The notes below the pieces were generated by a model. It ran no database searches. It had not been told where the DNA came from and saw nothing but the letters and a program-made list of their open reading frames with translations. A stretch of DNA of 64,000 nt from Candidatus Phycosocius spiralis (lineage in GTDB: Bacteria; Pseudomonadota; Alphaproteobacteria; Caulobacterales; Aquidulcibacteraceae), in assembly GCF_030158815.1 (NCBI RefSeq), contig NZ_BPFZ01000007.1, positions 1-64,000 of the forward strand. The letters are read 5' to 3'. Below are positions 43,904-60,722 of this stretch, one piece after another. A program made the translations under genes and the position numbers. Each line of letters begins with the position of its first letter. The first letter of the stretch is position 1.

Positions 43904-44251
43904 TCAACAAGCCATGACGGCGTCGCGCCAGCGTGAAGGCCAGGCGCCGCGCCCTGTTAATCGGATCATGCAGTCGTTGTAGTTCCAGCTGTAGGAGCGG
44001 CTCTTCTGTGCAAGGCGGCGTGTCGCGCCCACGCCAGCCCCGATGGCGGCGCCCTGGCCGGCATGTCCGGAAAACGACCCCACGACGGCCCCTCGCGCAG
44101 CACCACGGGCCGCCCCCGTGGAGGTTGGCGTCGATCGTGCGGCGTTCCTCGTATAGGCCTCGCAGGATTGGCTTTTGGTCTGTGCGAGCGCCGTCTCGGC
44201 GGTGAGCAAGCAGCCAGCTGTCAGCACTACGGCCGCAAGCAAATGCTTCAT
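43904..44251 (-). CDS. Small exported glycine-zipper protein
   Basis: 115 aa. A clear signal peptide (MKHLLAAVVLTAGCLLTAETALA) precedes a Cys-containing segment (SCEAYTRNAARS) and a glycine-zipper stretch (GAARGAARGAVVGSFSGHAGQGAAIGAGVGATRR), then WNYNDCM. Such proteins are small envelope proteins of unknown role; the two Cys may pair. It is GC-rich and marks the left part of the foreign island. The last ~20 residues (after NDCM) do not look family-like, so the 3' end may be damaged. Confidence 0.6.
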   Translation of the reverse strand: MKHLLAAVVLTAGCLLTAETALAQTKSQSCEAYTRNAARSTPTSTGAARGAARGAVVGSFSGHAGQGAAIGAGVGATRRLAQKSRSYSWNYNDCMIRLTGRGAWPSRWRDAVMAC

Positions 44252-44319: not shown

Positions 44320-44450
44320 GAATGCCCAATATCAATCTGGAGCAGAACTTTGGCTGAAGCTTAGCGGGATAGCAAACGGTCTCGAACTGTGAGGCTATCG
44401 ATATCGTCAATGTTATCGACGTGATAATGTCGAAGCCATGCGAAGGCGCT
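44320..44450. repeat. Direct repeat copy A bracketing the DUF3604 module
   Basis: Starts GAATGCCCAA and contains AAGCTTAG, GGATAGCAA, AACTGT, TGTTATCG, CGTGAT and ATGTCGAAG in the same order and spacing as copy B at 48413. Identity by eye is about 65-70% with a few 1-nt gaps. It lies 69 bp upstream of the glycine-zipper start on that gene's strand. Confidence 0.75.
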
Positions 44451-44595
44451 CATGCGATCCGGCTGTTTCTCCGGGTACGCCCCAAGGTCTGACCTTGCAC
44501 GTAATGCCCCGATATCCGGGTTGGCGGCGGTGGGCATGGCGCCGCTTTCGACACACCTTTGCGTGATCACCGGGAACGGCGCCGCCGCCATCGCT

Positions 44596-45585
44596 TCAGA
44601 AGAATGCCGCGACCCGCTCGAACATCCAGTAACTGGCAATGCCGCCTATGGCGTAGGCGGGCAGCACCGCAGCCCAGCGCGGATCGGTCGGCCCGGTAAC
44701 GCGGCGCACCAGCGCGGCGGCTGCGAGCAGCGCGGCCACGAACAGCAACTGCCCGATTTCGACGCCGACGTTGAAGAACAACAGGGCCAGCGGAATGCTG
44801 TTCTGCGGCAGGCCGACTTCGGCCAACGCGCCGGCAAAGCCGAGGCCATGGAGCAGGCCGAAGCTGAAGGCGATCAGCCAGGGCTTGCGGACCGCAAGGC
44901 TTGTGCGGCCCTGCTGCCGGTGCAGGATCTCCGCGGCGACGAACACGATCGACAGGGCGATGATCGCTTCGACCGGTGGCCCCGGCACCTTCAGCACGCC
45001 CAGGGTCGCCAGCGCCAGCGTGATCGAATGGGCGATGGTGAAGGCGGTGATGGTCAGCAGAAGCTTGCGCCGGCTGTCGACCAACATGACGAGGCCGGCC
45101 ACGAACAGGAGGTGATCGATGCCCTGCCAGATATGCTCGATGCCGAGCAGGGTATAGCTGCTCACCACCTCCCATGGCCCCGGGCTGGCGGCGGCGGTGA
45201 ACACCGGGTTGGCCGGGTTCAGCCGCTCCAGTTGCTCGGTGCCGTCGCTGCGCGCCATGCGAACCAGCACGTCGACCGGCACCAGCGCCAGGCCAGCAAA
45301 ACCGATATCCCTTCCCGTCAGTCCGCCGGGTACGGCGATGCGCCAGCGCTGTACGGTCGCGCCGCGGGCATAGATGCCACTGTGGGGCGTGACGTCCCGT
45401 GTGCCCGGGGGGAACACCGGCTGCAGCTTCAGCACCTTGCTCTCGTCCAGCGCCGGCACTTTCCAGAGCACATCGTAATAGCCGCCGCCGCGCTCGATCA
45501 GTTGTAGATAGGCCGGCTTGAACTCGTCGGCGGTCGCCGGCAGGGCGAATAGCAGGGCCAGCCAGAACAGCATGGTCCTGATCAC
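44596..45585 (-). CDS. HupE/UreJ family membrane protein
   Basis: 329 aa. A signal peptide or first helix is followed by a periplasmic domain of about 130 residues (to about residue 140), then six or so helices. The HupE/UreJ motifs are seen: GIEHIWQGIDHLLFVAGL, ITAFTIAHSITLALA, FGLLHGLGFAGAL and FFNVGVEIGQLLFV, with conserved His and Asp residues in the membrane. HupE/UreJ proteins are nickel or cobalt permeases; this long form with an extracytoplasmic domain is of unknown substrate. The GTG start overlaps the isomerase stop (GTGA), so the two are cotranslated. Confidence 0.88.
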   Translation of the reverse strand: MIRTMLFWLALLFALPATADEFKPAYLQLIERGGGYYDVLWKVPALDESKVLKLQPVFPPGTRDVTPHSGIYARGATVQRWRIAVPGGLTGRDIGFAGLALVPVDVLVRMARSDGTEQLERLNPANPVFTAAASPGPWEVVSSYTLLGIEHIWQGIDHLLFVAGLVMLVDSRRKLLLTITAFTIAHSITLALATLGVLKVPGPPVEAIIALSIVFVAAEILHRQQGRTSLAVRKPWLIAFSFGLLHGLGFAGALAEVGLPQNSIPLALLFFNVGVEIGQLLFVAALLAAAALVRRVTGPTDPRWAAVLPAYAIGGIASYWMFERVAAFF

Positions 45586-46391
45586 CGGCCGGCCACCTCG
45601 ACTTTGTAACGCTTGCGGAGCGCCGCGTATCGTGCGGCGGCCGCAGTCTGGCGGCGATCATTCTCCCATTCGCGCTGAACCTCGGTGCGGATGACGGCGA
45701 GTGGCGGCGTTTCTGCCGGCACGCGCGCTGACAGGCGAACGAGGTGCTGGCCGTAGCCAGACGCCACCGGGCCCTGCCAGCCCCCGATCGGCATCGTCGC
45801 CAGTTCACTGGCCAGGACGCCGCCAAAGTCGCGGGCGACGCGGTCGAGCGGTTCGCCGTTGATGCGGCGCGGCAGCAGCGTTTCCGCACCCAGCCGGTCC
45901 GCGTCGCCCCCCGCATCCAAGGCGGCCCTCAACGCCGCGGCATCGGCGCCGACGGGCAGCAGGACCTGTTTGAAACTCACCACCGCAGGACGACGGAACC
46001 GGTCGGGGTGCGCCTTCAGATAGGCGGCAAGATCGGCTTCGGTTGGCGCGCTGCTGTCTTCCTCCTCGGCGATCAGTTCGTACTTCTGGCGCACCCGGCG
46101 CTTGATCACGGCGTCGTCACGGTCCAGGCCCATCACCACGCCTTCGCGATACAGGATTTCGTCGCGCACCCGCGCCTCGATGATCGCGTCGCGCTCCTGC
46201 GGCGTCGGCGGGCGGCCCCACCGCTGGCGGAACTGGTCCTGCATGGCCGCCACCTCAGCGGCGCCGACACGGATGATTTCGCCGCTGCCGCCGCCACCGC
46301 CGGGTGTAACGACGCCGTGGAGGGCGAACAGCAGCAGCCCCAGCGCCAAGAAATGCACCAGTGGCTCGCGAAGCAATCCTCGCAACGACAT
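45582..46391 (-). CDS. Parvulin-like peptidyl-prolyl isomerase, membrane-anchored
   Basis: 269 aa. One N-terminal helix (FLALGLLLFALHGVV) anchors a periplasmic protein. The SurA/PpiC-like chaperone part (RPPTPQERDAIIEARVRDEILYREG) is followed by a rotamase-like segment (RPAVVSFKQVLLPVG... FGGVLASELATMPIGGWQGPVASGYGQHLVRL). It ends with EWENDRRQTAAAARYAALRKRY. It is sandwiched between DUF3604 (19 bp upstream) and HupE (overlap). A role in folding the exported DUF3604 protein is inference from context. Confidence 0.85.
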   Translation of the reverse strand: MSLRGLLREPLVHFLALGLLLFALHGVVTPGGGGGSGEIIRVGAAEVAAMQDQFRQRWGRPPTPQERDAIIEARVRDEILYREGVVMGLDRDDAVIKRRVRQKYELIAEEEDSSAPTEADLAAYLKAHPDRFRRPAVVSFKQVLLPVGADAAALRAALDAGGDADRLGAETLLPRRINGEPLDRVARDFGGVLASELATMPIGGWQGPVASGYGQHLVRLSARVPAETPPLAVIRTEVQREWENDRRQTAAAARYAALRKRYKVEVAGR

Positions 46392-46410
46392 TGCGTCAGC
46401 CTATCGGGCT

Positions 46411-48294
46411 TCAGGACGGCGTGTACCAGATGGGGGAAGTGAAGGCGCGTTCCTGGTGGATGAGCTGCGCCTCGGCCGGCGCCGGCACCTTGAACCGCAC
46501 CTGGTCGTACGCCGTCCAGCGCGGGGTCGGGATTTCCAGCACGCGGACATAATAGACGGCGCGCTGCTTGGGGTCGAAGCCGGGGTCCCTCCACAGTCCG
46601 ACCAGTTCGGCAGCGCCGATGCTGTTGCTGTAGGTGGCAGTCTTGAGATTGACGGTGTTGCCCACCGCCGGCAGCTTGCCATTCGCGCCGGGCTTGCGGG
46701 CGCCCGCCCATTTGACCTCATAGACCTGTTCATGGGTCTGGCCCCGGGCATCGACCCAGCCCTTGATCACCTGCACCCGGTCGAGATTGGCGCCCTGCGG
46801 GTCCTTCATCGCGGCAACCAGGAAGGTAGGGGCCTTGCCGGCCGGGGCGGGCTTCAGGTCGCCGCCCATCGGCACGCCACGGGTATAGCCGGCCCTGACG
46901 AGATTGCCGAGGTCGGCGGCGGCAAAGTCATAGCCGCCAAAGAAACGTACCGTCATGCGCGGGCCGGTGGTAGCAAAGGTTTCGCGCCGCTGCATCGCGT
47001 CCCACAACGCCTCGCGCGTGTTGGCTTTGGCCCAGACGCCCATGTAGCCGGCGGCGGTCGTATCAAAGCTCAAAAACTGCTTGTTGAAGGGCCGCGTCAT
47101 CCGATCGGCCGACGGCTCGATCGACGCCAGCTTGCCCCAGTAATTATTCTCCTCGGCCGCAGATAGGGCGGTGTGGGTATCGGTGCCGGCATTGGCGCCG
47201 ATCTTGAACGGATTGGCACCCAGCGTGCCCTGCAGCCTGAGGCCGCTCTTCAAGGCCTCCCGCCAATATTCGGTGCGAACCATGCCGGGCTCCTTGAGCA
47301 CGCCGTTCAGATTGCCCCGGTCCCACAGGTCCCAATTTGCGAATTCATCGTTCGGGCTCAGACTGGGGTGGCTTTCCGACTGACCCTTCATCTGGGTCAA
47401 CTCGACCAGCGGCTCCCAACGCTGGCGCGCAGAAGCGTATTCACGCGTCATCGGCGAGCGGTCGAAGCGGGTTTCCTCGAACATCCGCCCGTTCGACAGA
47501 TTGCCGTTGTGGGGGATGGCCAGCGCCTTGCCGCCGGTCTTGGCTTCATAGTCCGCCATCCACTTCCACAACCCTTCCGGATCCTGGGTCTCGAAGGACG
47601 TGAGCGGGAGCACTTGGCCGGCCTTGTCGGCCCCGTCGCGCAGGACGACATTGCGGTGCAGATTGTTCCCGTCATCGGCATTCACCGTCCACTCATAGCC
47701 GATCATTGCGGTGAACTTGCCCGGTTCGTTGTATCGGTCGGCGATCTCGATCGTCCGCTTCCAAGCGGAGACCATCCACTTGGGATCCGTCATGGCCTTT
47801 GGCAGCTGCTGGGCCACCTGCAAGTCCACCGCTTCCAGCATCACTTTGTTGCGCAGGTTCGCGTCCGAACTCTTGAGGGCGGCATTCATTCGCTTCAGGA
47901 ATTCGTCGTTTCCGATCATCTCGGGATTGCCGGAACGGATTTCGCTGATGGTTCCCATCCCGTCGGAATGGTCAGTGATCACCATCCAGTCGAGCGCGCG
48001 GTTCAGCTTCGCCTTCTGCCCGCTGTTGGATGTCACTTCGTCGCCGCGCGCGAAACGGAAGGCATCCTCCGGACCGAGGATCGCGCCGTCGATGCCCGCG
48101 TCCGCCGACCAGCCGGTGTGGACATGGGTGTCGCCGAAATAGGCGCGGTCGGGATAGGCGGTATCCTTGACCTCGCCGCTGCCGGTGACCTGCTTGACTT
48201 GGCCCTCGGCAATGGCCTGAATGGTTCGACCGAAGCTGCCCAGCAGCAAGGTTGAGCCGAGCAACAGCACGGCAACGGCAGATGAAATGCGCAT
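46411..48294 (-). CDS. DUF3604 family exported protein (PHP-like hydrolase)
   Basis: 627 aa from the ATG at 48294, which has GGGAGGGA upstream and starts a good signal peptide (MRISSAVAVLLLGSTLLLG); the frame extends to 48345 without support. Metal-type motifs follow: YFGDTHVHTGWSAD, MVITDHSDGMGT, MIGYEWTV, AIPHNGNLSNG and AGTDTHTALSA, as in PHP/amidohydrolase-like phosphoesterases. Predicted to be a periplasmic metallohydrolase; the reaction is unknown. First gene of a three-gene operon with the isomerase and HupE-like protein. Confidence 0.88.
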   Translation of the reverse strand: MRISSAVAVLLLGSTLLLGSFGRTIQAIAEGQVKQVTGSGEVKDTAYPDRAYFGDTHVHTGWSADAGIDGAILGPEDAFRFARGDEVTSNSGQKAKLNRALDWMVITDHSDGMGTISEIRSGNPEMIGNDEFLKRMNAALKSSDANLRNKVMLEAVDLQVAQQLPKAMTDPKWMVSAWKRTIEIADRYNEPGKFTAMIGYEWTVNADDGNNLHRNVVLRDGADKAGQVLPLTSFETQDPEGLWKWMADYEAKTGGKALAIPHNGNLSNGRMFEETRFDRSPMTREYASARQRWEPLVELTQMKGQSESHPSLSPNDEFANWDLWDRGNLNGVLKEPGMVRTEYWREALKSGLRLQGTLGANPFKIGANAGTDTHTALSAAEENNYWGKLASIEPSADRMTRPFNKQFLSFDTTAAGYMGVWAKANTREALWDAMQRRETFATTGPRMTVRFFGGYDFAAADLGNLVRAGYTRGVPMGGDLKPAPAGKAPTFLVAAMKDPQGANLDRVQVIKGWVDARGQTHEQVYEVKWAGARKPGANGKLPAVGNTVNLKTATYSNSIGAAELVGLWRDPGFDPKQRAVYYVRVLEIPTPRWTAYDQVRFKVPAPAEAQLIHQERAFTSPIWYTPS

Positions 48295-48412
48295 CCTAAT
48301 TCCCTCCCGTTGGACAGGTCTACGCAACTGCAGCGCCGTCGGCATAGCCTTGCAAATAGGCTCGACCCATATGCCTCGCGATGTTCGCCGATGAACGCGA
48401 CAATGGCCTTTG

Positions 48413-48550
48413 GAATGCCCAAGCTCACGCTGGATCGGACCTTGCCTTAAGCTTAGGAGGATAGCAATTGCTATGAAACTGTCAAGATACTGATGCCATG
48501 GGTGTTATCGGCGTGATGATGTCGAAGTCATCAAGAGGGCGCGGTGATGC
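48413..48550. repeat. Direct repeat copy B bracketing the DUF3604 module
   Basis: Counterpart of copy A at 44320: GAATGCCCAA, AAGCTTAG, GGATAGCAA, AACTGT, TGTTATCG, CGTGAT and ATGTCGAAG in order. It lies 119 bp upstream of the DUF3604 start and 26 bp from the IS left end. It may be a shared promoter region or the end repeats of an inserted segment. Confidence 0.75.
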
Positions 48551-48638
48551 TGAACTCGGCAAGGCAACTTGAAATGTGGACTTGTAACGGTTTTGTTCCG
48601 GGTGGTGAGATGTAAATCACCTAATCAGGAGTAGAATC

Positions 48639-48935
48639 ATGACACAGGTATACGGAGAAGAGTTTCGTCGTGAGGCGGTGCGTTTGGCATTGACCAGCGG
48701 TTTGACGCGTGAGCGTGTGGCGGCCGATCTTGGGATTGGCAAGTCGACGCTGGGCAAGTGGATCCAATTAGCAGGGAGACATGATGGCGAGGGCATCAGG
48801 TCAGCACCGGGCAATTTGCCGACAGACTTTGACTTGTTGAAAGAGAACGAACGGCTTCGTCATGAAAACAAGGTTCTGCGCGAGGAGAGGGAGATCTTAA
48901 AAAAGGCCACTGCCTTCTTCGCGAGCCAAAAGTGA
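48639..48935 (+). CDS. IS3-family transposase OrfA
   Basis: 98 aa. EEFRREAVRLALTSGLTRERVAADLGIGKSTLGKWIQ is the helix-turn-helix that binds the IS ends; LLKENERLRHENKVLREEREILKKATAFFA is the leucine zipper. AGGAG lies upstream of the ATG. The AAAAAAG heptamer near the end allows -1 frameshifting into orfB. OrfA alone regulates transposition. Confidence 0.92.
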   Translation: MTQVYGEEFRREAVRLALTSGLTRERVAADLGIGKSTLGKWIQLAGRHDGEGIRSAPGNLPTDFDLLKENERLRHENKVLREEREILKKATAFFASQK

Positions 48936-49792
48936 TGCGATTTGCGTTCATCCAGAAATGGCGTCATATCTGGCGCATTGAAACGATGTGCCGGGTCATG
49001 GACGTCACGGCGCGCGGCTTTCGGGCTTGAGTCAACCGGCCCATGAGCACGCGGGTGCGTGGCGACATGCGGCTGCTAGCCCATATCAAAGACCAATACA
49101 CCCAATCTCTTGGAACCTATGGCCGATCTCGCATGACGGCAGAGCTCAAGGAAATTGGTTTGAAGGTTGGAGAAAGGCGGGTGGGTCGGTTGATGCGTAT
49201 CCATGGTGTCGTCCCGGTTCGGACGCACCGTTACAAAGTCACGACTGACAGCAATCACAAACATGGATATGCCGAAAACCTCTTGGCGTGCGACTTTCAG
49301 GCTGATGGTCCCAATCAGAAATGGGCAGGCGATATCAGTTATATCTGGACAGCTGAAGGCTGGCTCTATCTGGCCGTCGTTCTGGACCTTCATTCACGCC
49401 TCGTAATCGGCTGGGCAGTCAGTGACCGGATGAAAAAAGACCTCGCAATCAGGGCATTCGATATGGCTGCACGGCTGCGTAATCCCCCACCTGGGTGTAT
49501 CTTCCATAGCGACCGCGGCAGTCAATACGCTTCGGGTGATTACCAGAAGCGCCTTGGTGCCTACACAATGAAACCGTCCATGAGCGCAACCGGGAATTGC
49601 TACGACAACTCCGCCGTCGAGACATTCTTCAAGACCATCAAAGCCGAACCGATCTGGCGGTACCGCTGGGCCACACGCAAGCAAGCCCATACAGCCATCT
49701 TTGAATACATCAATGGCTTTTATAATCCGCGCCGCCGACACTCATACTTGGGCGGCATCAGCCCACTGGCTTTCGAAGCAAAAGTGGCCTAA
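48935..49792 (+). pseudogene. IS3-family transposase OrfB (rve/DDE integrase) with in-frame TGA
   Basis: The frame opens at the ATG overlapping the orfA stop (TGATG) and is the -1 frame reached from the A6G site. The TGA at 49028-49030 falls where relatives have a Trp (RAxVNRP), so a TGG to TGA change is likely. After it the frame is open to 49792, and the ATG at 49043 begins a 249-aa product. The catalytic triad is intact: Asp in KWAGDISYIW, Asp in VVLDLHSR and Glu in SAVETFFKTIK. Loss of the N-terminal part should prevent a full OrfAB transposase. Confidence 0.85.
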
Positions 49793-49975
49793 CAAGAGAT
49801 ACCACACCGGAACGAAACCGTTACAAGTCCAGCTCCAGCCAAATGGTTCGCGCAGAGGTGCGGATGCCGGACGCAAGCCGTGTCCGGGTGACGAGACAAA
49901 TACCGGCGAACTGCTCAATGCGCATCGGCGGGCCTTCACTCAGTTTGGATGTTTGCCCGCCGCGGCCGCCACGGT

Positions 49976-51670
49976 CTATTTGCGGCGATAGATCGTATGG
50001 CCTTCCTTGATCGTTTCCTCGACCTTGATCTGGTCGATTGTTTCTGGATCGACCGCGGTCGGATCGGCCGAAAGGATCACGAAATCGGCAAGCTTGCCGA
50101 CCTTCAGCGAGCCTTTCCGGTCTTCCTCGTAATGCTGATAGGCAGGCCAGATCGTCATCGCCTTAAGGCCAGTCATAACGTCGACCCGCTGCGATGCCCC
50201 AAGGATATCGCCGCTGCGCGAACGACGCGTGACCGTGGCATCGAGCACCCGCATTGAGTCTGGGAAGGCAACCGGCGCATCGTGGTGCGTGGTGAAGATC
50301 ATCTTGCGCTCGCGGACCCAGCCGGTGGGAGAGATATTGTCGGCATCGACTGGGCCGATCGTGTGATCACGGTGCCAGTCGCCCCAGTAGAAGGTGTGCA
50401 TCGGGAATAACGAGGGGATCACGCCGAGCCGGTCGAAGGACGCGATCTGGTCCTTGCGCAGGAACTGGCCGTGGATCAGCACCGGCCGGCGGTCACCCTT
50501 GCCGTGGTGCTTTTCGGCCTGCCCGAGCGCGGCGATCAGCAGGTCGCTCGCCGCCTCGCCGTTGGAATGGGTCAGCAGCTGGACATTATTGGCATAGGCC
50601 CAGTCGACCGCATCGAACACCTGTTCGCGGGTGGCGGCCGGATAGCCGACATAGTCAGGCGGATATTCGCCCACGGGGGCGAAATAGGGATGATCGCGCC
50701 AGGCGGTGAAGCCTTGCGGCGAACCGTCGATGGTGAGCTTGCCGCCCCCCACGCGGAAGCGCTTGACGTAATCGGGCGAAGACTTGGCCTTGGCCATGTC
50801 GCGGTCAACCAGCACGTCGATGTAGGCGACCACGTCGATCGGCAACAGGCCCGCGCCCGCCGCTCCTTCGAGCTGAGCGATCGTGCCTGCAGTGGCGCGG
50901 CCTTCCTGAGCGGTGGTGTAGCCGAATCGAGCCCAAAGGTCGGTGCCGGACTTGACGATCCCCAGCACCGCTTCGCCGTCGAACACCGTGAACATCTTGC
51001 CCAGGCTCATGAAATGGGCGGTTTCCTCGAACACCCCGTCAGGTTCGCCATCGCTTCGCTTCCGGATGATGCCGCCTTCAGGGGAGGGCGTTTTGCGGGT
51101 GATGCCGAGCTTGGCGAGCCCGACCGAATTGGTCGCGCCGAAATGCCCGGACTGGTGGATGAGATAGATCGGGATTGTGGTCGAAATCGCGTCGAGATCG
51201 TCGCGGGTCGGGTGGCGAGCCTCGGCGAGACTGGCATTGTCGTAGCCAAAGCCGAGGATGATACCATACCGGTCGACCATCGCCTGGTTGTCCTTGATCC
51301 ACTGGCGGATCACTGTGATCATGGAAGGAATGTCCTTCACATCACCATCGGGGGGAGCGAGCAGATTGGCGCTCATCGCTTGCAAACCGCCGCCGGTGAC
51401 ATGACCGTGGGCGTCGACAAAACCGGGTAGCAACGTTCTCCCTGCGAGGCCGATGACCTCGGTTTTGGGCCCCTTGAATTTCATCACCTCGGCGACGCTA
51501 CCGACCGCGACGATCTTGCCGTCATCCTCGGCGATCGCCTCGGCGCGCATTGCCTCGTCCTCCATGGTGATGATCGGCCCGCCGGTCCAGATCCGGTCGG
51601 CGTTCTGAGCTAGCGCCGTGCTAGCGGAGGATGCCAGCAGTGCCAGTGCGGTCAAACGGAATGCGCGCAT
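49976..51670 (-). CDS. Exported amidohydrolase, YtcJ-like
   Basis: 564 aa with a signal peptide (FRLTALALLASSASTALA), so periplasmic. It belongs to the amidohydrolase superfamily: VIGLAGRTLLPGFVDAHGHVTG gives the first metal His pair, and LLTHSNGEAASDLLI and PVLIHGQFLRKDQI the further His residues; the C-terminal part KVGKLADFVILSADP is typical. YtcJ-like proteins hydrolyse C-N bonds of unknown substrates. AAGGGGA precedes the ATG. GC-rich, part of the island, and downstream of the IS. The porin fragment behind it may once have been a partner. Confidence 0.9.
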   Translation of the reverse strand: MRAFRLTALALLASSASTALAQNADRIWTGGPIITMEDEAMRAEAIAEDDGKIVAVGSVAEVMKFKGPKTEVIGLAGRTLLPGFVDAHGHVTGGGLQAMSANLLAPPDGDVKDIPSMITVIRQWIKDNQAMVDRYGIILGFGYDNASLAEARHPTRDDLDAISTTIPIYLIHQSGHFGATNSVGLAKLGITRKTPSPEGGIIRKRSDGEPDGVFEETAHFMSLGKMFTVFDGEAVLGIVKSGTDLWARFGYTTAQEGRATAGTIAQLEGAAGAGLLPIDVVAYIDVLVDRDMAKAKSSPDYVKRFRVGGGKLTIDGSPQGFTAWRDHPYFAPVGEYPPDYVGYPAATREQVFDAVDWAYANNVQLLTHSNGEAASDLLIAALGQAEKHHGKGDRRPVLIHGQFLRKDQIASFDRLGVIPSLFPMHTFYWGDWHRDHTIGPVDADNISPTGWVRERKMIFTTHHDAPVAFPDSMRVLDATVTRRSRSGDILGASQRVDVMTGLKAMTIWPAYQHYEEDRKGSLKVGKLADFVILSADPTAVDPETIDQIKVEETIKEGHTIYRRK

Positions 51671-51873: not shown

Positions 51874-52560
51874 CTAGAAATTGAAGACGAGATTGACGTA
51901 CCCTCCGGTCCACGCCGGGACGCCGCCCGGCACTGTGTTCTCGATTCCCTCACCCGGTTCTGAGATCGTGGCTCCAGCCGATAAAAATAGATTGCGAGTG
52001 ATGACTCTATTGTATTCGAGGAAAATGTCGTCTGAGACGTGAGAGGCCGTGACCCCGGCGACAACATTGGGCAGATCGCCGCCGGTCCCGAAATCGACGC
52101 GTTCGGCCTGTCCGAATTGCAACGGACTGCGCAGTTGGTTGGCGTCGATTCTGGTCAAGCGTAGCGTCAACGTGTCCTTGGGCGACGGCTGCACCCGGAA
52201 GGCTACGCCGTGCGCACGCACGTTTGAATTGATGAACACCATCGAGGACTTGGACCCGGTCGACCACGCACTGGGCGAGCCTTCGTAGAACAACGGATCG
52301 AACCGCTCGAGCCCGGGCGTGTCGGGATCGTCGCCCGAGAATGTCTGGAAGCTGTAGGTGATCGAGGGGCGCCACTTGGCTTTTGCGAAGGTATAGCCCA
52401 CCTGCACCCGTCCGGCCCAGGCCGATTGATCGATCCGGTTGTTCCACTGGTAGGTACCGTCAATCGCGAAAAGCCAGTTTTCCAGCGCGCCCTTGAGTTT
52501 GCCGGTGCCCGCATAGAAATTGACCGTGTTGGTGCCGTCACGCATGGCCTTTGCTATGAC
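51874..52560 (-). pseudogene. Outer-membrane porin (alginate-export/beta-barrel type), 3' fragment
   Basis: About 229 residues of alternating beta-strands (WLFAIDGTYQWNNRID, AWAGRVQVGYTFAK, WRPSITYSFQTFSGDDP, HGVAFRVQPSPKDTLTLRLTRID), ending ...GGYVNLVFNF with the C-terminal Phe needed for BAM-dependent insertion. The N-terminal half and signal peptide are missing. The frame runs instead into integrase sequence at about 52560, so this is a truncated gene joined to foreign DNA. The fused frame extends to 52698 but the product would lack a signal peptide. Confidence 0.75.
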
Positions 52561-52870
52561 CAGCCCACCTTTTCCGGCCAAAGCTTTTACCCGTTCACTC
52601 GGGCTCTCAGATAAGTCGACGCCCTTGGTCGCCTCGGTGATGACTTCGCGCGCGGTTGCGCGCTGCTTCAGGAGTCCAAGGCAAACCGTGTTCGCCAATT
52701 GTCATCCAGCGTTGTTGACGGATGACGCGATACTTTACGCAATAGGTCTTCCGGCCACTCGACGAGATCCGAAGCATGAAACCACGCAGCTCAATATCCC
52801 AAATCCGCGTGTCCCCAGTCTCCGGCGGCATCGCTGAATCGACAAATCGCTTATTGATTTTTGCCTTCAA
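52560..52870 (-). pseudogene. Tyrosine-type phage/island integrase, N-terminal stump with frameshift
   Basis: Starts MKAKINKRFVDSAMPPETGD, then IWDIELRGFMLRI and KTYCVKYRVIRQQRWMTIGEHG, the arm-binding domain of P4-like tyrosine integrases (DUF4102). The frame breaks at about 52646 and continues in another frame (REVITEATKGVDLSE). The core-binding and catalytic domains are absent; the sequence joins a porin fragment. It lies about 240 bp from a tRNA-Thr remnant, the normal int-att layout. Confidence 0.85.
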
Positions 52871-53110
52871 AACGTCTTACAAAGTTAACTTCCTATGCCA
52901 TATTTATGCTATCAATCGACCCCATCACGCGACACCATCATCTCAAAAATGGCGAAGTTTGGACCGATTTTCAGCTTTTTTTGCTACCAATTTGCTACCA
53001 AATGGGAAAAATTCAGTAACAAGCTGTCCCATAATATTAGAAGAAAATCTATGTGACACAATATATTATGAAAAATTGTGACAAGCCGTGAAAACGCGAA
53101 AAAACGAGGG

Positions 53111-53162
53111 CCTCACTGTTGGTAATGATGGGGTCGCAAGTTCAATCCTGTTTGCAGCACCA
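53111..53162 (+). other. tRNA-Thr(GGT) 3'-half remnant, probable att site
   Basis: The sequence reads as an anticodon arm with loop TTGGTAA (anticodon GGT), then GGGGTC, then a T-arm with TTCAATC and the end GCAGCACCA, matching the 3' half of tRNA-Thr. Stems carry mismatches and there is no D-arm or 5' acceptor strand, so it is not a functional tRNA. Position next to the integrase stump suggests an attachment-site copy. Confidence 0.6.
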
Positions 53163-53189
53163 GTGTTTTCAATGGCTTATGTCTAAAAG

Positions 53190-53409
53190 ATAATGCGTTC
53201 ATCCCATCCAGTCGCCCCAGAGCTTGATTAGCCCGGTCCAATAAGGCGAACAGGGGCTCCAACTGAAGCGGCGGATTGGGCGGTAAGGGCGGCGGAATAA
53301 AGGCGCGCACCACTTCCCCACCAGCGACCGTTTCACGGTGTTGGCCCAGCCGATTTGAAGGGCTAATATCAAATGATGCGGAGGTTGGACTATTCACACA
53401 CGCGTTCAT
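53190..53409 (-). pseudogene. Fic family protein, N-terminal fragment
   Basis: About 70 residues resemble the Fic_N domain: GGEVVRAFIPPPLPPNPPLQLEPLFALLDRANQALGRLDG. Similarity stops after RLDGMNAL at about 53190, right beside the att-like tRNA remnant; the frame continues to 53113 through that remnant. The catalytic HPFxxGNGR domain is missing. The gene was probably cut by integration or excision at the att site. No good ribosome site. Confidence 0.7.
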
Positions 53410-53555
53410 AGCGAAAGTCGTTATTAAAGGAAAGCAGCTTTTACGTTATTAGGAAAGGCACATTGTAGAGATATCGAAACAACTCAATCCGACACAATGG
53501 AATGTAGATACCAAACATGCGCCACAAAGCCCGTTTGCTAACCATAATCTGGAAA

Positions 53556-53876
53556 TTACTGCCGCCACCAAGGTTTTTTTGGTGCGTTGGCTTTATTGAT
53601 GGTGTCTATGATTGAGATCGCCGCTTCTCGGCGTGCATCGCACAATTCGAGATCGGCACTTTGTTGAACCGAAAAAGCCGCCAGCGCACCAATTGTTAGA
53701 CCATCCGTGCTTGGCCGCTCAGTCCTTGGGCAGGTTTTGATGGTTTCTGGCACCGTTACGCTCAGGCTGGGTGCTGGCGTTGCGCAGGCCGTCAATGCCA
53801 TTACCCCAAGCAGCGGCAACATCAGGGGGTACAAACGCATCAGCCGATGGGAGCGCTTCAATTTCTTTTGTGACAT
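53556..53876 (-). CDS. Rz1-like outer-membrane spanin lipoprotein
   Basis: 106 aa from the ATG at 53876, which has GAGG at good spacing. Basic start (MSQKKLKRSHRLMR), hydrophobic core and lipobox VMALTAC, followed by a Pro- and Thr-rich mature part. It lies out of frame inside and beyond the 3' half of the Rz-like gene (158-bp overlap), the classic Rz/Rz1 arrangement. Expected to span the periplasm with Rz and fuse the membranes at lysis. Confidence 0.7.
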   Translation of the reverse strand: MSQKKLKRSHRLMRLYPLMLPLLGVMALTACATPAPSLSVTVPETIKTCPRTERPSTDGLTIGALAAFSVQQSADLELCDARREAAISIIDTINKANAPKKPWWRQ

Positions 53877-54084
53877 ACTGCACCTCATGCGTAATACGCC
53901 TTTCTGTCTGCGTCACACGGTCTATCGCTTTGGCGGTGGCTTTGCTGACCAAGGCTTCTGCCTGTGCTACCTTGGCAGCTTGTTTGGCTTTTGCGACTTG
54001 GGTTGTAAGAAACGTCATGTAGCCAGAGAGAATACATAAAGCCAAAAGCAAAAAGCCAATGAGATATGCTTTCCAATGGATCAT
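53719..54084 (-). CDS. Rz-like inner-membrane spanin
   Basis: 121 aa from the ATG at 54084, which overlaps the endolysin stop (ATGA). N-terminal helix (IGFLLLALCILSGYMTFL) then a long coiled coil (AKAKQAAKVAQAEALVSKATAKAIDRVTQTERRITHEVQ), the i-spanin architecture. The product is followed out of frame by the Rz1-like lipoprotein gene. No sequence family is certain; the call rests on topology and gene order. Confidence 0.7.
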   Translation of the reverse strand: MIHWKAYLIGFLLLALCILSGYMTFLTTQVAKAKQAAKVAQAEALVSKATAKAIDRVTQTERRITHEVQYVTKEIEALPSADAFVPPDVAAAWGNGIDGLRNASTQPERNGARNHQNLPKD

Positions 54085-54608
54085 GCGACACCGACATCTT
54101 CTAAAGCCACAGCCCTGACTTCGTTGATGCGACGGAACCACCCTTTGCCAAACGTGGCAAAAGTTCGCAGTTGCGATACAAAAGAAGCGCGCCGGGCCAT
54201 GATAGCTTGAACCAAAGATCCTGAAGGAAGTGTGGTGGCCGCTTCAATCGTACGCGGTCCGATTATGCCATCGTCTTTTAGACCACAGGCAAGTTGCAGA
54301 TAACGAATGGCCCGATGAACGCCGCTATTCACAGCCAAATCTAAAACCGCATAATCCACACCAACAGGCAAATTATCGCCGCGTATGGCATCCCAATACA
54401 TCAATTTATAAATGGAGCTGACTTCATTGTATTTGATGTTGGCAACCGATTGAATTGGCAGCTTTGCGTTACGCCTAAACGAATCATATACCGCCTGAGT
54501 GACACCGAAATTTGTAGCCCCACCTGGGTCTTTTGGGTGATCAACAAACCCACCTTCATGCTTTAAAATGCGGGGCAAAAGCTCTAAAAATCTATTGGTT
54601 TTTTTCAT
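54081..54608 (-). CDS. Phage-type endolysin, GH108 family
   Basis: 175 aa from the ATG at 54608 (GAGG six bases upstream); an ATG at 54614 is too close to that site. ILKHEGGFVDHPKDPGGATNFGVTQAVYD is the GH108 signature with the catalytic Glu in HEGG. GVDYAVLDLAVNSGVHRAIRYLQ and the peptidoglycan-binding-like part DGIIGPRTIEAA follow. It cleaves peptidoglycan once the holin opens the membrane. No signal peptide. Enzymes of this type (COG3926) also serve gene transfer agent lysis. Confidence 0.9.
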   Translation of the reverse strand: MKKTNRFLELLPRILKHEGGFVDHPKDPGGATNFGVTQAVYDSFRRNAKLPIQSVANIKYNEVSSIYKLMYWDAIRGDNLPVGVDYAVLDLAVNSGVHRAIRYLQLACGLKDDGIIGPRTIEAATTLPSGSLVQAIMARRASFVSQLRTFATFGKGWFRRINEVRAVALEDVGVA

Positions 54609-54897
54609 GTTCATCCTCGTTCACGTTCACTTCGACGGCTCCAGCTTTCAAAGAGAATGAACTGATGCCGTCTTTAGTAAGAAACAGGGCAAGCCCAATC
54701 ATGAAAATATTGGCTAAAAGCGCGATACCCAGCCATTGCACCCGCGCTTCTGCCGTCTCAATCGGCCAGCCACCGCGCCACAAAATCAACACCAACCCCA
54801 CCGCCGATAAAGTCAAAGGAATAGGTGCAGCAATCCGAATACCTTCTCCAATCCAAGGCCAACCGGGAAATTTACCGGGAAATTTAAATGTATTCAT
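54592..54897 (-). CDS. Putative holin, two membrane helices
   Basis: 101 aa. Helices around IAAPIPLTLSAVGLVLILW and WLGIALLANIFMIGLALFL, with a charged tail (NVNEDEHEKNQ). Small size, two helices, acidic C-terminus and position directly upstream of an endolysin (17-23 bp overlap) indicate a holin, though no family motif is diagnostic. Confidence 0.65.
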   Translation of the reverse strand: MNTFKFPGKFPGWPWIGEGIRIAAPIPLTLSAVGLVLILWRGGWPIETAEARVQWLGIALLANIFMIGLALFLTKDGISSFSLKAGAVEVNVNEDEHEKNQ

Positions 54898-54980
54898 GAT
54901 ATGACTTCCTGCATGGCTCTATCAAGCTCACCTAAAGGTGTGGCGGTGATCTTGAGTTGACCTGCCATGACCTGACTCAC
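54894..54980 (-). CDS. Possible small ORF overlapping the holin start
   Basis: GTG at 54980 (or ATG 54968) to a TGA that overlaps the holin ATG (ATGA). About 24-28 residues (MAGQLKITATPLGELDRAM...). It may be the 3' end of a lost upstream gene. No family recognised. Confidence 0.3.
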   Translation of the reverse strand: MSQVMAGQLKITATPLGELDRAMQEVIS

Positions 54981-55550
54981 CACAAAGCTAAGTTCGCTTT
55001 AGGCTAGGGGGAGATTGATTGGGTTAGTCTAATCCGGCCGGAGGAAATGGTGGATAAAGTTTAAAGCAGAAAGCCGATTTTGTTTGCTGGAAGCAAGAAT
55101 TTGGTGCTAACAAGCGTTTTGACCATCTTGCCTAGACCATGGTACACAAGATGACGAAATATGTAATCATGAATAAGATGAAAGTTTACACAGAATTGGC
55201 TAAGTAACTAGTGTCGAAGCCTTATTCTATCCAATTAACACGATGGCGAACAAGATGGACTGGAGAGTTTTGCAAATTGATGACAAAGGAGCTTGTGAAG
55301 CATCTAACCTAGCGACGGATGATGATTTAAAACCACTATTGTGTGGTTCGCCATGCATTTTCACTTTGATTTCCCGCCTGGTTCATAGATAAAAATTTAG
55401 AGCCTTGGAATGTTTTAGTTTGGCTGAATTCATACGACCTCTGATACCTTAAAGGGCCATCAAATGCACTGAGGTTTGTCCAATCATTTGAATTCGATAT
55501 TGTTCAATTGTCTTAACCACAAATGGAAAGTAAAACTCTCATCTTCGATT
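54898..55550. other. AT-rich gene-free stretch (about 650 bp)
   Basis: Between the lysis cassette and the TacA-like gene. Apart from the small ORF at its left edge I see no coding sequence, strong hairpin or repeat. It should contain the promoter of the lysis cassette. Confidence 0.5.
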
Positions 55551-57050
55551 TTATCCAGCCGCTTGGGTTATATGCTCAACAAGATCATATTCTTTCAACT
55601 TGCGGTACAGTGTAGAACGCCCAATGCCAAGACGACGGGCAACTTCTGTCATGTGTCCAGCGTAAAGATCAATCGCACATTCAATCAAGTCGCGCTCAAT
55701 TTGCTCCAAGGTGCGCAAATGGCCGGCCGGATCAAAGATAGCAACTGAACTTGTGTGGTCTAGGGCCGCCGCTAACCCATCGCCTTTCGCGGGCATATTG
55801 GCTAGGTCTAGGCCAATTGGTGCCCCTTGAGACGTCTTGGGCGCATCATTTTCCCCGCTCTGCACTGGAAAATGAGGTAATGCCATTTGAATATGGGGAA
55901 AATCCTCTGGCTGAAGAAAATCTCCATCACTGAGAACAACCGCCCGAAACACCGCATTCTCTAATTGTCGGACATTACCTGGCCAGTCAAATTTTTGCAG
56001 CATCATCAAGGCGTGAGGTGAGATACCCAAAACGCACTTACCCTCTTCGGCATTGATCCGGGTTACAAAATGCTTCACCAAATCTTGGATATCTTCCATG
56101 CGATCACGCAGTGGCGGCACGTCGATGGGAAATACATTAAGGCGATAATAGAGATCCTCACGAAACCTCCCTTCCGCTACCAGTTTGGCCAAATCCTTAT
56201 TGGTTGCAGCAATCATGCGCACATCAAGCTTGATTGGGCGCTTGGAGCCAATTGGATCAACCTCACCCTCTTGGAGAGCACGTAACAATTTCACTTGCAT
56301 GTCCAATGGCAGCTCACCAACTTCATCAAGGAATAGCGTGCCCCCGGCTGCCTCTTGGAACTTACCTAAATGACGCTCATGCGCACCGGTAAAAGCCCCT
56401 TTTTCATGGCCAAACAAAATGCTTTCCACAAGGTTTTCAGGTATTGCGCCACAATTAACGGTTATGATCGGGCGTCCGGATCGCTCACTTTCGCCATGGA
56501 TCGCTCGGGCAATCACTTCCTTACCCACACCACTTTCGCCCAAGATTAGCACGGGAATGTTAGATGCAGCTGCGCGTTGACCCAAGCGAATGACCTGACG
56601 CATCGCGAAAGCCCCCGCTACCATGTCAATAAAAGTGAACGTGCCTGTAGCTTTTTTCTTGAGCCGTTTGACCTCTCCAGATAATTCCCCCACTTTAAGC
56701 GCGTTGCGAATAGAAACCAATACACGCTCTGGGCTTGCAGGCTTTACAAAAAAATCTGATGCGCCAGCTTGCATCGCCTTAACAACGGTGTCGATGCCCC
56801 CTGAGGCCGTTAACACAATAATGGGCAGATCATCGCGTTTAGTTCTGATTGCAGCCAAAGCTTCCATGCCAGATACACCAGGCATGATCAAATCTAACAA
56901 GACGACATCCACGGCTGGATCCAAGGCTTGTGCGATGGCTTGTGCGCCATCCTCGGCAGAGCGCGTCGCAAACCCTTGGCGCTCAACTGCGGCCTGTAGC
57001 AAACGACGTTGCGATGGATCGTCATCGACGATCAGCACGGTCTTACTCAT
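55551..57050 (-). CDS. Sigma-54-dependent response regulator, TacA-like
   Basis: 499 aa from the ATG at 57050, where MSKTVLIVDDDPSQRR begins a standard receiver; the longer frame to 57107 is unsupported. Phospho-acceptor Asp in VVLLDLIMPGVSG. The AAA+ domain has Walker A GESGVGKE, GAFTGA (sigma-54 contact) and Walker B TLFLDEVGELP. The C-terminal Fis-type HTH is HMTEVARRLGIGRSTLYRKLKEY. The layout and receiver sequence resemble Caulobacter TacA, which drives stalk and polarity genes. Other NtrC-type regulators cannot be excluded. Confidence 0.88.
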   Translation of the reverse strand: MSKTVLIVDDDPSQRRLLQAAVERQGFATRSAEDGAQAIAQALDPAVDVVLLDLIMPGVSGMEALAAIRTKRDDLPIIVLTASGGIDTVVKAMQAGASDFFVKPASPERVLVSIRNALKVGELSGEVKRLKKKATGTFTFIDMVAGAFAMRQVIRLGQRAAASNIPVLILGESGVGKEVIARAIHGESERSGRPIITVNCGAIPENLVESILFGHEKGAFTGAHERHLGKFQEAAGGTLFLDEVGELPLDMQVKLLRALQEGEVDPIGSKRPIKLDVRMIAATNKDLAKLVAEGRFREDLYYRLNVFPIDVPPLRDRMEDIQDLVKHFVTRINAEEGKCVLGISPHALMMLQKFDWPGNVRQLENAVFRAVVLSDGDFLQPEDFPHIQMALPHFPVQSGENDAPKTSQGAPIGLDLANMPAKGDGLAAALDHTSSVAIFDPAGHLRTLEQIERDLIECAIDLYAGHMTEVARRLGIGRSTLYRKLKEYDLVEHITQAAG

Positions 57051-57291
57051 TCTACCCACCAATTTCTGACTATTAGATTGTTCAACTCTCGGCCTCCTAG
57101 AAATCACATTTTTATAAGCTAAGGACCAGTTCTGTCGTTGTGTCTAAGGACCGGATGTAAAGGCTGGCTTAAAATGGCACACAAGATCTTCATAAACTGC
57201 ACATCCTACCCCTTGACCAAAGCCAGCCACAACGCCATGCCCACAGGGGTACACCCATCCCATTCAAACCAACATTATATAGGCCCGTTTC

Positions 57292-58383
57292 ATGCCAGTT
57301 ACCCCGCTTCCCGGTATTCTAGATATTGCCCCCTATAAGGGTGGAGAAGCCGTCATTGCCGGCATTGAAAGGCCTTGGAAACTCTCCTCTAACGAAAATC
57401 CATTGGGCTGTAGCCCTTTAGCGCAACACGCCTATCAAACTGCGGCAAAGGATTTAGCCACTTATCCAGACGGCGATCATGCCAAGTTACGTGAAGCCAT
57501 TGCCCAGCTTTATGGTTTGGATCGCCACCGCATCATGTGCGGCAATGGTTCAGATGAGATTTTCCAGCTCCTGGGGCGGGCTTTTCTTGATCAAGGCGAT
57601 GAAGTGGTGCAATCCGAACATGGATTTCTGGTTTATCGACTAACAGCACAGCAGGCTGGGGCGGTATGTATTTCTGCGCCTGAAACACATCTAACAGCGA
57701 ATGTTGACGCTTTATTGGCCTGTGTCACCGCTAAGACAAAACTCCTTTTCTTGGCCAATCCGAATAATCCCACAGGCACCTATTTGCCCTACGCCCAGAT
57801 TAAACGCCTTCACGCCGACTTGCCCGAACATGTGCTCCTTGTTCTTGATGCGGCTTATAGTGAATATGTTCTTAGCAATGATTATGCATCGGGGTTGGAG
57901 CTGGCAGGTGAGGCCAACAATGTATTGATGACGCGTACCTTTTCCAAAATCCATGGTTTGGCCGCGGCCCGTGTGGGCTGGTGTTATGGACCCCAAATTG
58001 TCATTGATGCACTCAACCGCGTGCGGGGGCCATTCAATGTAAGTGCGCCTGGCCTAGCTGCCGCAGAAGCAGCAATTTTGGACCATGCATTTTGCAATCA
58101 AAGCATCGCGTTCAATAGCCAGTGGCTGGACTGGATGAGTCGTCATATCGCAGAAATTGGTTTGGATGTTGTACCCAGTGTTGGCAATTTTATATTGGTG
58201 AAATTTCCAAGCCAAAGCTCTAAATCCGCGTCCATGGCAGACAGCTTTCTGCGTTCACGCGGGGTGATTGTCAGGCCAGTGCGTGCCTATGGGCTTGATG
58301 ATTATCTGCGCATTTCTATAGGCCTTGAAACCCCCAACCGCTTGGTGGTCTCTAGTCTTGAAGAATTTATGGGCCAGCCATGA
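57292..58383 (+). CDS. hisC: Histidinol-phosphate aminotransferase (or aromatic aminotransferase)
   Basis: 363 aa PLP enzyme of fold type I. KLSSNENPLGCSP is the N-terminal substrate-binding loop of HisC. FLANPNNPTGTY, LLVLDAAYSEYV and the PLP-Lys in TRTFSKIHGLAAARVGW follow. The gene overlaps the prephenate dehydrogenase start by 4 bp (ATGA). This pairing suggests that the enzyme works in tyrosine/phenylalanine synthesis as well as, or instead of, histidine synthesis. Confidence 0.92.
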   Translation: MPVTPLPGILDIAPYKGGEAVIAGIERPWKLSSNENPLGCSPLAQHAYQTAAKDLATYPDGDHAKLREAIAQLYGLDRHRIMCGNGSDEIFQLLGRAFLDQGDEVVQSEHGFLVYRLTAQQAGAVCISAPETHLTANVDALLACVTAKTKLLFLANPNNPTGTYLPYAQIKRLHADLPEHVLLVLDAAYSEYVLSNDYASGLELAGEANNVLMTRTFSKIHGLAAARVGWCYGPQIVIDALNRVRGPFNVSAPGLAAAEAAILDHAFCNQSIAFNSQWLDWMSRHIAEIGLDVVPSVGNFILVKFPSQSSKSASMADSFLRSRGVIVRPVRAYGLDDYLRISIGLETPNRLVVSSLEEFMGQP

Positions 58384-59303
58384 AACTTGATGCCAAGGTG
58401 AATATGGCCATCATAGGCATAGGTCTTATCGGATCCTCCTTGGCTAGAGCCGTTCATCATTATGATCTTGCTGAACGTGTTGCCCTATATGATTTGGATC
58501 CTTTAGTACGTCAGCGCGCCCAAGAGCTTGGGTTGGGGATGGTGTGTGAAACCGTGGTCCAAGCAGTTAAAGACGCCGAGCTTGTTGTCTTGTGCACCCC
58601 ACCTAGTAGCATTGCAGAGATTGGAAGCCAAATTGTCGGGGCCCTAAAGCTGGGGGCCATCTTAACCGATGTTAGCTCTGTCAAAGTTGCGATGATTGAT
58701 CAATTGGCACCAATCGTACCTGACCATTGTTTTTTTGTGCCAGGACATCCGATAGCAGGAGCGGAGAGGTCGGGCCCCGATGCTGGCTTTGCCAGTTTGT
58801 TTGTCAATCGTTGGGCGATTTTAACCCCGCTTAACGATAGTCGCCATGGCTATGGTGAAGCGGTGGTGCGTCTTTCACGTTTGTGGGAAGCTATGGGCGC
58901 TAAGGTCGAATTAATGGACCCTATGCGCCATGATCAGGTGCTGGCAATGACCAGCCACTTACCCCATCTGATCGCCTTTTGTTTGGTCGCGACGGCGCAG
59001 GATATGGAAACACTTACCGATAGCGAAGTGGTTAAGTATTCCGCCGGCGGATTTCGTGACTTCACAAGGATTGCCGCTTCTGACCCAACCATGTGGCGGG
59101 ATGTTTTTTTATTGAACAAAGATGCGATCTTAGATCTATTGGGACGCTTTTCAGAAGATTTAACAGCCCTGCGGCGCGCAATCCGGTGGAGCGATGGGGC
59201 GACCTTGTTTTCGACATTTGAACGCGCCCGCAAAATGCGCCGAGATGTTATTGATGCCGGACAAGATGTTGATGCCCCCAATTTTGGACGCGATCGCCGC
59301 TGA
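58380..59303 (+). CDS. tyrA: Prephenate/arogenate dehydrogenase
   Basis: 307 aa. The dinucleotide-binding motif IIGIGLIGSSLARAV is at the start; VPGHPIAGAERSGPDAG is the TyrA active-site segment with the catalytic His; AMTSHLPHLIAF and SAGGFRDFTRIAASDP complete the family. It oxidises and decarboxylates prephenate (or arogenate) towards tyrosine using NAD(P). Translationally coupled to hisC. Confidence 0.95.
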   Translation: MKLDAKVNMAIIGIGLIGSSLARAVHHYDLAERVALYDLDPLVRQRAQELGLGMVCETVVQAVKDAELVVLCTPPSSIAEIGSQIVGALKLGAILTDVSSVKVAMIDQLAPIVPDHCFFVPGHPIAGAERSGPDAGFASLFVNRWAILTPLNDSRHGYGEAVVRLSRLWEAMGAKVELMDPMRHDQVLAMTSHLPHLIAFCLVATAQDMETLTDSEVVKYSAGGFRDFTRIAASDPTMWRDVFLLNKDAILDLLGRFSEDLTALRRAIRWSDGATLFSTFERARKMRRDVIDAGQDVDAPNFGRDRR

Positions 59304-59404
59304 TTTGGTGCTGGTTTTGATCAAATGGATCCATCATGGCATTTGGAATCCTATTGCCTAGTCTTAAGCTAGGTGCCCCAAGCCTTATGGCAAAGATAGC
59401 AAAA

Positions 59405-59421
59405 TAAACCAATCATTAACC
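59405..59421 (+). promoter_or_regulatory. Near-consensus CtrA box upstream of tipF-like gene
   Basis: TAAA, seven bases, TTAACC: one mismatch to TTAA-N7-TTAAC. It lies about 50 bp before the GTG start, at a position suited to transcription control. Confidence 0.5.
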
Positions 59422-59471
59422 AGTTCAGTCTTGATGTTGAAAGGTCATTCTAGCACTTTCGGGAGAAACCC

Positions 59472-60701: not shown

Positions 60702-60704
60702 CCC

Positions 60705-60722
60705 CCTAGGCACTTGCCTAGG
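60705..60722. terminator. Hairpin just after the tipF-like gene
   Basis: CCTAGGCA, CT, TGCCTAGG, beginning four bases after the stop codon. A perfect 8-bp stem without a T-run; a terminator is possible. Confidence 0.4.

Follow-up and report, generated by a model that had tools for sequence, protein, structure and literature searches.

The HupE/UreJ proteins are known nickel permeases (PMC12537917), and the anglerase Ang-1, proposed in 2025, which has a membrane part of the HupE_UreJ_2 type, carries an N-domain that binds copper and nickel with nanomolar affinity through its N-terminal His (PMC12537917; PDB 9GCE) and for which the ZrgA structure 8F1B was named as the nearest fold (PMC12537917). 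In the vibrio Zrg system for zinc uptake, a MacB-like permease (ZrgB) and an ATPase (ZrgC) act together with ZrgA (PMC9820375, PMC9817125). We analysed a 64,000-nucleotide stretch of the genome of Candidatus Phycosocius spiralis (assembly GCF_030158815.1, contig NZ_BPFZ01000007.1, positions 1-64,000, forward strand; the whole of this stretch is called the window), in which a HupE_UreJ_2 permease with a periplasmic N-domain is encoded beside a parvulin-like protein and a putative exported metallohydrolase of the DUF3604 family. The results of this analysis showed that the three genes are linked in a conserved genetic unit, which is proposed to be a functional one.

The trio lies on the minus strand in the order DUF3604 (46411-48294, 627 amino acids [aa], PF12228 at E 2e-228), the parvulin-like Rotamase_2 protein (45582-46391, 269 aa, PF13145 at E 5e-15) and HupE (44596-45585, PF13795 at E 1e-49), with a gap of 19 base pairs (bp) between the first two genes and a 4-bp overlap between the last two. 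The DUF3604 gene starts with ATG, preceded by a purine-rich stretch. These coordinates and Pfam matches agree with an earlier reading of this DNA (the original prediction), which had described three tightly linked minus-strand genes with this spacing.

The distribution of the three genes was determined in 299 genomes spread evenly over the phylum of the window's organism, its own genome included; for the HupE and parvulin profiles, the best 7 or 8 first-look candidates were scored where a genome held more. A trio-type HupE profile built from 22 relatives gave 20 matches (307-473 bits) in 17 of the 299 genomes, while the next match, at 189 bits, concerned mainly the membrane part. The trio-type parvulin likewise gave 20 matches (214-351 bits; next match, 74 bits), which fell in the identical 17 genomes. 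DUF3604 matches were found in 19 genomes, namely these 17 and two others, G122 and G031, which corresponds to a Fisher p of 8e-26 (1e-24 when the genome of the window is omitted), with shared ancestry ignored. In genome G162, DUF3604 was present only as a decayed fragment with a stop, adjoining the parvulin-HupE pair. At 18 of the 20 pair loci a full DUF3604 gene lay within 1 kb of the pair, whether upstream, downstream or converging. The second sample comprised 198 Bacteroidota genomes centred on the Christiangramia genome G317, which was picked as a DUF3604 carrier and is counted within the 198. DUF3604 occurred in three of them and the trio-type parvulin in the identical three (p 8e-7; two of 197 and p 5e-5 without the centre, shared ancestry again being ignored). 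HupE and DUF3604 adjoin the parvulin in the two non-centre genomes, and a HupE variant, described below, adjoins it in G317. In this co-occurrence survey, which the original prediction had set beforehand as its check, the genes were not rarely adjacent and co-occurred almost perfectly in both samples. As a side observation, short pieces of DUF3604 and HupE lie together in G031 (L133, 8040-8486), as they would after a near-complete deletion of the cassette.

Among 80 loci fetched by DUF3604 similarity, 24 held the pair inside the fetched stretch. A set of 49 DUF3604 genomes was then considered, consisting of 48 genomes whose fetched locus lacked the pair and the genome of L029, whose pair is local; eight of the 56 pairless loci (L019, L021, L048, L059, L068, L070, L073 and L074) were left out, and L001 was dropped as a duplicate of the window. 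A trio-type HupE was found at another place in 37 of the 49, and the Bacteroidota variant in 7. The surroundings of 20 of these 37 distant HupE genes were checked for the parvulin, which adjoined HupE in 19; another DUF3604 copy stood next to the distant pair in 8 of the 20, and none was present within the few kb fetched in the other 12. In each of the 43 pairs counted, the parvulin gene precedes HupE and both share one strand (L132, which was under the script threshold and outside this count, shows the same order on its map). Distance matrices from 41 sets, with L029 excluded, correlated at r 0.70 for parvulin-HupE, 0.49 for DUF3604-parvulin and 0.38 for DUF3604-HupE; none of 2000 permutations gave values as high, and part of the correlation stems from common descent and from transfer of the genes together. 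No fourth conserved gene was found near the pairs, the best neighbour being present at 5 of the 44 pair loci. A Cation_efflux neighbour cluster (9 loci) was not counted as evidence because it is confined to one genus, Microbulbifer.

The HupE_UreJ_2 membrane domain (PF13795) was detected in all 22 trio-type HupE relatives, and the HupE_UreJ family also matches. Residues H151, D157, H158, H186, H246 and G247 are invariant in these relatives, and E276 is nearly so. In the domain's first membrane helix, H151-x5-D157-H158 forms an H-x5-D-H pattern, which we take to be the H-x5-D-H motif of HupE nickel permeases; the trio HupE thus resembles these permeases in both Pfam matches and motif, and differs from them in its extra periplasmic domain. 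This domain is beta-rich and comprises about 110 residues in the AlphaFold2 model (predicted local distance difference test [pLDDT] score, 88). When the model was compared with the PDB by Foldseek, ranks 1, 2 and 4 were ZrgA of V. cholerae in its apo and zinc-bound forms (8ezw/8f1b), matched through the N-domain with a probability of 1.00, E values of 1.1e-3 to 1.0e-2 and TM-scores on the target of 0.54-0.56. Of 64 trio-type HupE proteins, 42 have His and 22 have Asp at the predicted mature N-terminus, which in the window is Asp20. The cleavage site was read by a pattern and by eye; the pattern could yield His, Asp or nothing, no row came back empty, and all 64 positions were checked by eye. 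On a quick tree this distribution requires nine changes between His and Asp, at least three of which are forced by well-supported branches.

These features recall the anglerases Ang-1 and Ang-2, which share a signal peptide, a periplasmic beta domain and a HupE_UreJ_2 membrane part with the trio HupE, and for which 8F1B was likewise given as the closest fold (PMC12537917). The N-terminal His of Ang-1 is also found in the 42 trio-type proteins mentioned above, whereas the window's HupE starts with Asp, and the N-domain of about 175 residues in Ang-1 compares with about 110 residues in trio-type HupE. Searches of the trio HupE against 9GCE gave no sequence match at E up to 1 and no profile match up to 10. 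As a positive control, an Ang-1-type protein encoded beside a DUF4198 gene (locus L105) found 9GCE at E 2e-28, and this protein aligned with the window's HupE over the membrane part plus trivial stretches only. The gene neighbourhoods differ as well: those of Ang-1 contain DUF4198, indigoidine A-like and PfkB genes (PMC12537917), and that of the window's HupE contains the parvulin and DUF3604. The terms DUF3604, PpiC and peptidyl-prolyl have no occurrence in the main text of PMC12537917. At L105 itself, the Ang-1-type HupE_UreJ_2 gene (928-2070) diverges from the DUF4198 gene (114-1145), a neighbourhood as described in PMC12537917.

Seven Bacteroidota loci carried a different gene set in the HupE slot. 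In all seven, the genes downstream of the parvulin gene encode, in this order, a 707-761-aa N-domain protein, an ATP-binding cassette (ABC) ATPase, a permease of the MacB/FtsX type and a ZnuA-like protein; the run is tightly spaced and lies on one strand (variant loci L166-L172; L029, 6-5756). The genomes are four Christiangramia, one Robertkochia, one Robiginitalea and one Bacteroidia bin, and the family names come from a Pfam scan of one member each (ZnuA, E 2e-37); at L172, ZnuA is matched weakly, with 36 bits, and is truncated where the contig ends. The 707-761-aa protein shares the HupE N-domain (64-71 bits against the HupE profile) and has a different membrane part, for which no Pfam match was obtained in the one member scanned. 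DUF3604 was present in the same fetched stretch at four of the seven loci, and an ordinary HupE instead of the variant was found in the Bacteroidota L025, G480 and G544. The variant run looks like a Zrg-like metal transporter standing in the place of HupE, and offers the best independent clue that the function of this slot may concern metal, possibly zinc. The trio resembles the ZrgABCDE system in the ZrgA-like fold of the HupE N-domain and, in this variant, in the ABC ATPase and MacB-like permease; it differs in that ZrgA is a separate soluble protein (PMC9820375, PMC9817125) and in that the window's cassette has a hydrolase and a parvulin instead. The neighbourhood scanned around the window's trio contained no ABC transporter gene, and no hydrogenase or urease gene was present among the eight window neighbour proteins scanned. 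Because of the invariant His/Asp pattern, the ZrgA-like N-domain and the ZnuA and MacB-type ABC transporter genes linked to it in Bacteroidota, HupE is supported as a putative metal-type permease.

The Rotamase_2 family (PF13145) matched all 23 trio-type parvulins, and the window's protein has, by eye, an N-terminal membrane anchor. In these two features, and in profile matches to all three, the protein resembles SurA, PrsA and HP0175. Both histidines of parvulin isomerases are catalytic residues. In the profile alignment, the invariant H216 of the trio parvulin corresponds to the second of them (the FGYH His of HP0175), and the nearly invariant Q142 aligns with the ARHILV His, so that the first active-site His is replaced by Gln. 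This replacement and the dedicated genomic partner set the trio parvulin apart from SurA, PrsA and HP0175. It may act as a dedicated chaperone whose isomerase activity is low or lacking.

The window's DUF3604 protein matched PF12228 with 759.9 bits (curated cut-off, 20.4) over profile positions 3-591 of 591, and H57, H59, D65, D108, H109, E201, H213, H262, E298, D372 and H374 are invariant in 47 relatives. The order of its motifs (HxH, TDH, H, H, E, DxH and TTGP) resembles, by eye, the metal ligands of CehA/PHP-type proteins, suggesting that DUF3604 is probably a hydrolase that needs several metal ions. Against the CehA/McbA family NF038032 of carbaryl-type metallohydrolases the protein scored 20.7 bits, below the cut-off of 80 bits, and sub-threshold matches were obtained for 18 of 47 members (best E 3e-5). 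Unlike CehA/McbA, DUF3604 constitutes a separate family and carries a beta-sandwich-like region at its C-terminal end. An AlphaFold2 model was obtained with a mean pLDDT of 91; its weak Foldseek matches that were listed are mostly beta-sandwich proteins, and no PHP fold was present among the best 50 of 1259 matches. A PHP fold is not claimed for DUF3604, given these weak matches and the lack of a usable HH match. The N-terminus shows, by eye, a Sec-type signal peptide, relatives that are complete at this end look Sec-type as well, and several close relatives have a lipobox, which supports the prediction that DUF3604 is Sec-exported and in some close relatives lipid-anchored. Tat export was rated unlikely; an RR-like motif was found in one of 104 DUF3604 proteins and lay outside any signal peptide, in a check that was partial because a script had guessed the start codons and several of the sequences start only after the signal.

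Based on these results, we consider it an evenly balanced proposition that the trio is a folding and metal-handling unit for the exported hydrolase DUF3604. The linkage, co-occurrence, conserved residues and predicted folds described above are shown, and the chaperone role, the identity of the metal, the direction of its transport and the substrate of the hydrolase are inferred. The steps of such a unit would be as follows. DUF3604 would reach the periplasm unfolded and metal-free, where the parvulin, held at the inner membrane and probably with little or no isomerase activity, would chaperone it. HupE would be an anglerase-like metal handler, whose ZrgA-like domain with its His/Asp start may capture zinc, manganese or nickel/cobalt and whose membrane part may carry the metal across the inner membrane. 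Parvulin and HupE together would secure the loading of DUF3604 with the right metal. The original prediction had read the block as a hydrolase with its own folding factor and permease; that the genes belong together was borne out by the genome survey, and the predicted exported hydrolase, degenerate membrane parvulin and metal-type permease are consistent with the roles it assigned. The more specific idea of a dedicated periplasmic metallation and folding machine, in which a permease with a metal-fishing domain (His or Asp N-terminus) and a non-catalytic parvulin would load metal into one exported hydrolase family, a task that a MacB-type ABC transporter and ZnuA would perform in some Bacteroidota, is put forward tentatively, and we hold it to be rather less probable than not.

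Several observations weigh against a folding and metal-handling role. The HupE proteins known so far carry metal into the cytoplasm, which is of no direct use to a periplasmic enzyme; therefore, DUF3604 would profit only if the N-domain hands metal over or if metal is exported. The E values of the ZrgA matches lie just above 1e-3, and the HupE model had no PDB match at or below this value. The whole DUF3604 model also had no PDB match at E <=1e-3, and the HH comparison of DUF3604 gave 4% with CehA (3 rows) and 1% with PHP (12 rows), each over short stretches, so that its assignment as a metallohydrolase rests on the motif order read by eye and on the sub-threshold NCBIfam match. The p-values for co-occurrence disregard shared ancestry, and the genome searches scored the best 7 to 12 first-look candidates in genomes that had more. 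Exceptions to the linkage were found as well: G122 encodes a divergent DUF3604 of 680 aa without a trio-type partner (L193, 5958-8000), the pair of G262 lies about 41 kb from the nearest DUF3604, 5 of the 49 DUF3604 genomes (G299, G309, G313, G326 and G330, all metagenome bins) had no trio-type HupE, and the distant HupE at L192 had no adjoining parvulin. The G122 protein has, by eye, an N-terminal membrane anchor, and its neighbours were named by eye as acyl-CoA dehydrogenase-, thiolase- and ketosteroid-dehydrogenase-like.

The composition of the cassette differs from that of its surroundings. The guanine-plus-cytosine (GC) content of the trio is 65.8%, compared with 52.1% in positions 1-43700 on its left and 49.1% in 53000-64000 on its right, and the GC content at third codon positions is 0.81-0.87 in the trio genes, compared with 0.44-0.57 in FlbT and TerC of the window. 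DUF3604 was found in one of nine genomes of the genus, that of the window, and in none of the eight congeners. Since the GC content differs from both flanks and DUF3604 occurs in one of nine genomes, the cassette most likely arrived horizontally. The original prediction of a GC-rich foreign block bracketed by diverged direct repeats was thus upheld as to composition and origin, but the foreign GC is not confined to the span from repeat to repeat. It extends to a gene for a small exported glycine-zipper protein (43904-44251, minus strand, 66% GC), which lies outside this span, and to a GC-rich Amidohydro_3 gene (49976-51670, 62.5% GC) beyond an IS3-family insertion sequence (48577-49831, plus strand). 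The latter is not part of the cassette; its 25-bp inverted ends are 96% complementary, it has inserted immediately 5' of the promoter region of DUF3604, and no obvious target duplication was seen in the flanking bases. Amidohydro_3 homologues also occur near DUF3604 at L027, L028 and L033, which makes 4 of 98 loci including the window, and the gene may be a loose partner of DUF3604. Further on, 51874-52698 encodes a partial Alginate_exp outer-membrane protein (positions 207-331 of 395 of the family), possibly a truncated remnant. Elsewhere in the window's genome, contig 23 holds a decayed N-terminal fragment of a second DUF3604 (L194, about 3220-3432; 64 positions) near a gene named by eye as TonB-dependent-receptor-like.

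The predicted direct repeats do exist. Copy 1 (44320-44439, minus strand) lies between the HupE and glycine-zipper genes, upstream of the latter, and copy 2 (48413-48531, minus strand) is upstream of DUF3604, 4.1 kb away with the trio between them. Over 120 bp the copies share 73% identity (BLASTN E 2e-13), their local-alignment score of 80 compares with a maximum of 26 among 500 mononucleotide shuffles, and their GC content is 46-48%. Both precede a gene on the minus strand, and a promoter-like site, TTGACA-16-TATCCT, is found in copy 2 at 48485-48458 (two such sites in 4.9 kb, 0.7 expected). From their positions and the promoter-like site, the repeats are more likely duplicated promoter or leader regions than brackets of a mobile block, and the glycine-zipper gene is possibly a unit driven by copy 1. 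Apart from pieces of the window's own genome, no further repeat copy was found in the fetched loci. A DNA search of the own genome returned the query itself only; since it also overlooked the known 73% copy, this insensitive search cannot exclude diverged copies.

Other explanations of the trio were weighed against a folding and metal-handling role. DUF3604 could serve metal acquisition by splitting an extracellular metal-binding compound or ester, with HupE importing the freed metal and the parvulin aiding envelope assembly. The ZnuA-like and MacB-type ABC genes in the gene run of all seven Bacteroidota variants and the resemblance of the HupE N-domain to the zinc-uptake protein ZrgA would suit this explanation, but several genomes (e.g. 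G174, G262, G075 and G220) have two to three DUF3604 copies per single pair, and therefore an accessory role of the pair fits better; moreover, the commonest other neighbour of DUF3604 is a sulfatase cluster (25 of 98 loci, named from one representative). We thus regard metal acquisition as unlikely. The same sulfatase cluster, together with the DUF1254/DUF1214 and Phenol_MetA_deg clusters (8 of the 98 loci each, each named from one representative) and the amidohydrolase cluster that three loci share with the window, would be expected if the trio were a catabolic unit, in which HupE, as a substrate permease beside a catabolic hydrolase, carries the hydrolysis product or an accompanying ion rather than metal. 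The invariant H-x5-D-H, H and H-G of HupE and its His/Asp N-terminus, however, resemble metal ligands, and a metal ABC system occupies the same place in Bacteroidota; this explanation appears somewhat more unlikely still.

That the trio merely travels together as a selfish operon, without shared function, would agree with the foreign copy in the window (GC 66% against 52%, one of nine genus genomes). All genes are nevertheless kept in G262, where DUF3604 is apart from the pair, and in 12 of 20 genomes examined HupE is retained although the few kb fetched around it hold no DUF3604; the parvulin is present there in 11 of the 12. Pairs with a local DUF3604 also span, according to record titles, Pseudomonadota taxa, Bacteroidota, Planctomycetota, Acidobacteria and Nitrospirae, and linkage without function seems highly improbable. 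A mobile unit with the diverged repeats as its ends is the explanation we would credit least. The 120-bp repeats 4.1 kb apart around the trio, at 46-48% GC with foreign composition inside, would fit such a unit, but 73% identity is too low for a recent insertion, no recombinase gene was recognised between the repeats, each repeat is upstream of a same-strand gene with a promoter-like site in copy 2, foreign GC continues outside them, and further copies were not found in the fetched loci beyond pieces of the own genome.

DUF3604 has been little studied: among 5.39 million open-access papers, a single one contains the term, and it concerns Chlamydia transposon mutants; PF12228 is mentioned in none of them. 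No description of the trio was found there either, in the titles, abstracts and text passages covered, which agrees with the original prediction of an undescribed system; this novelty is provisional because subscription papers and neighbourhood databases (e.g. STRING) were outside the search, and the linkage of the three genes may already be visible in such databases. To our knowledge, no described system provides a single family of exported hydrolases with a metal-delivery permease and a chaperone of its own.

The near-constant company of two envelope proteins gives DUF3604 a defined context and makes an assay of its function testable. How exported metalloenzymes are supplied with the right metal is an open question, and a dedicated permease-chaperone pair, if true, would be a tractable model for this supply. 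The trio-type HupE would also widen the newly proposed anglerase class, adding an N-domain type whose N-terminus, presumed to bind metal, shows a natural switch between His and Asp.

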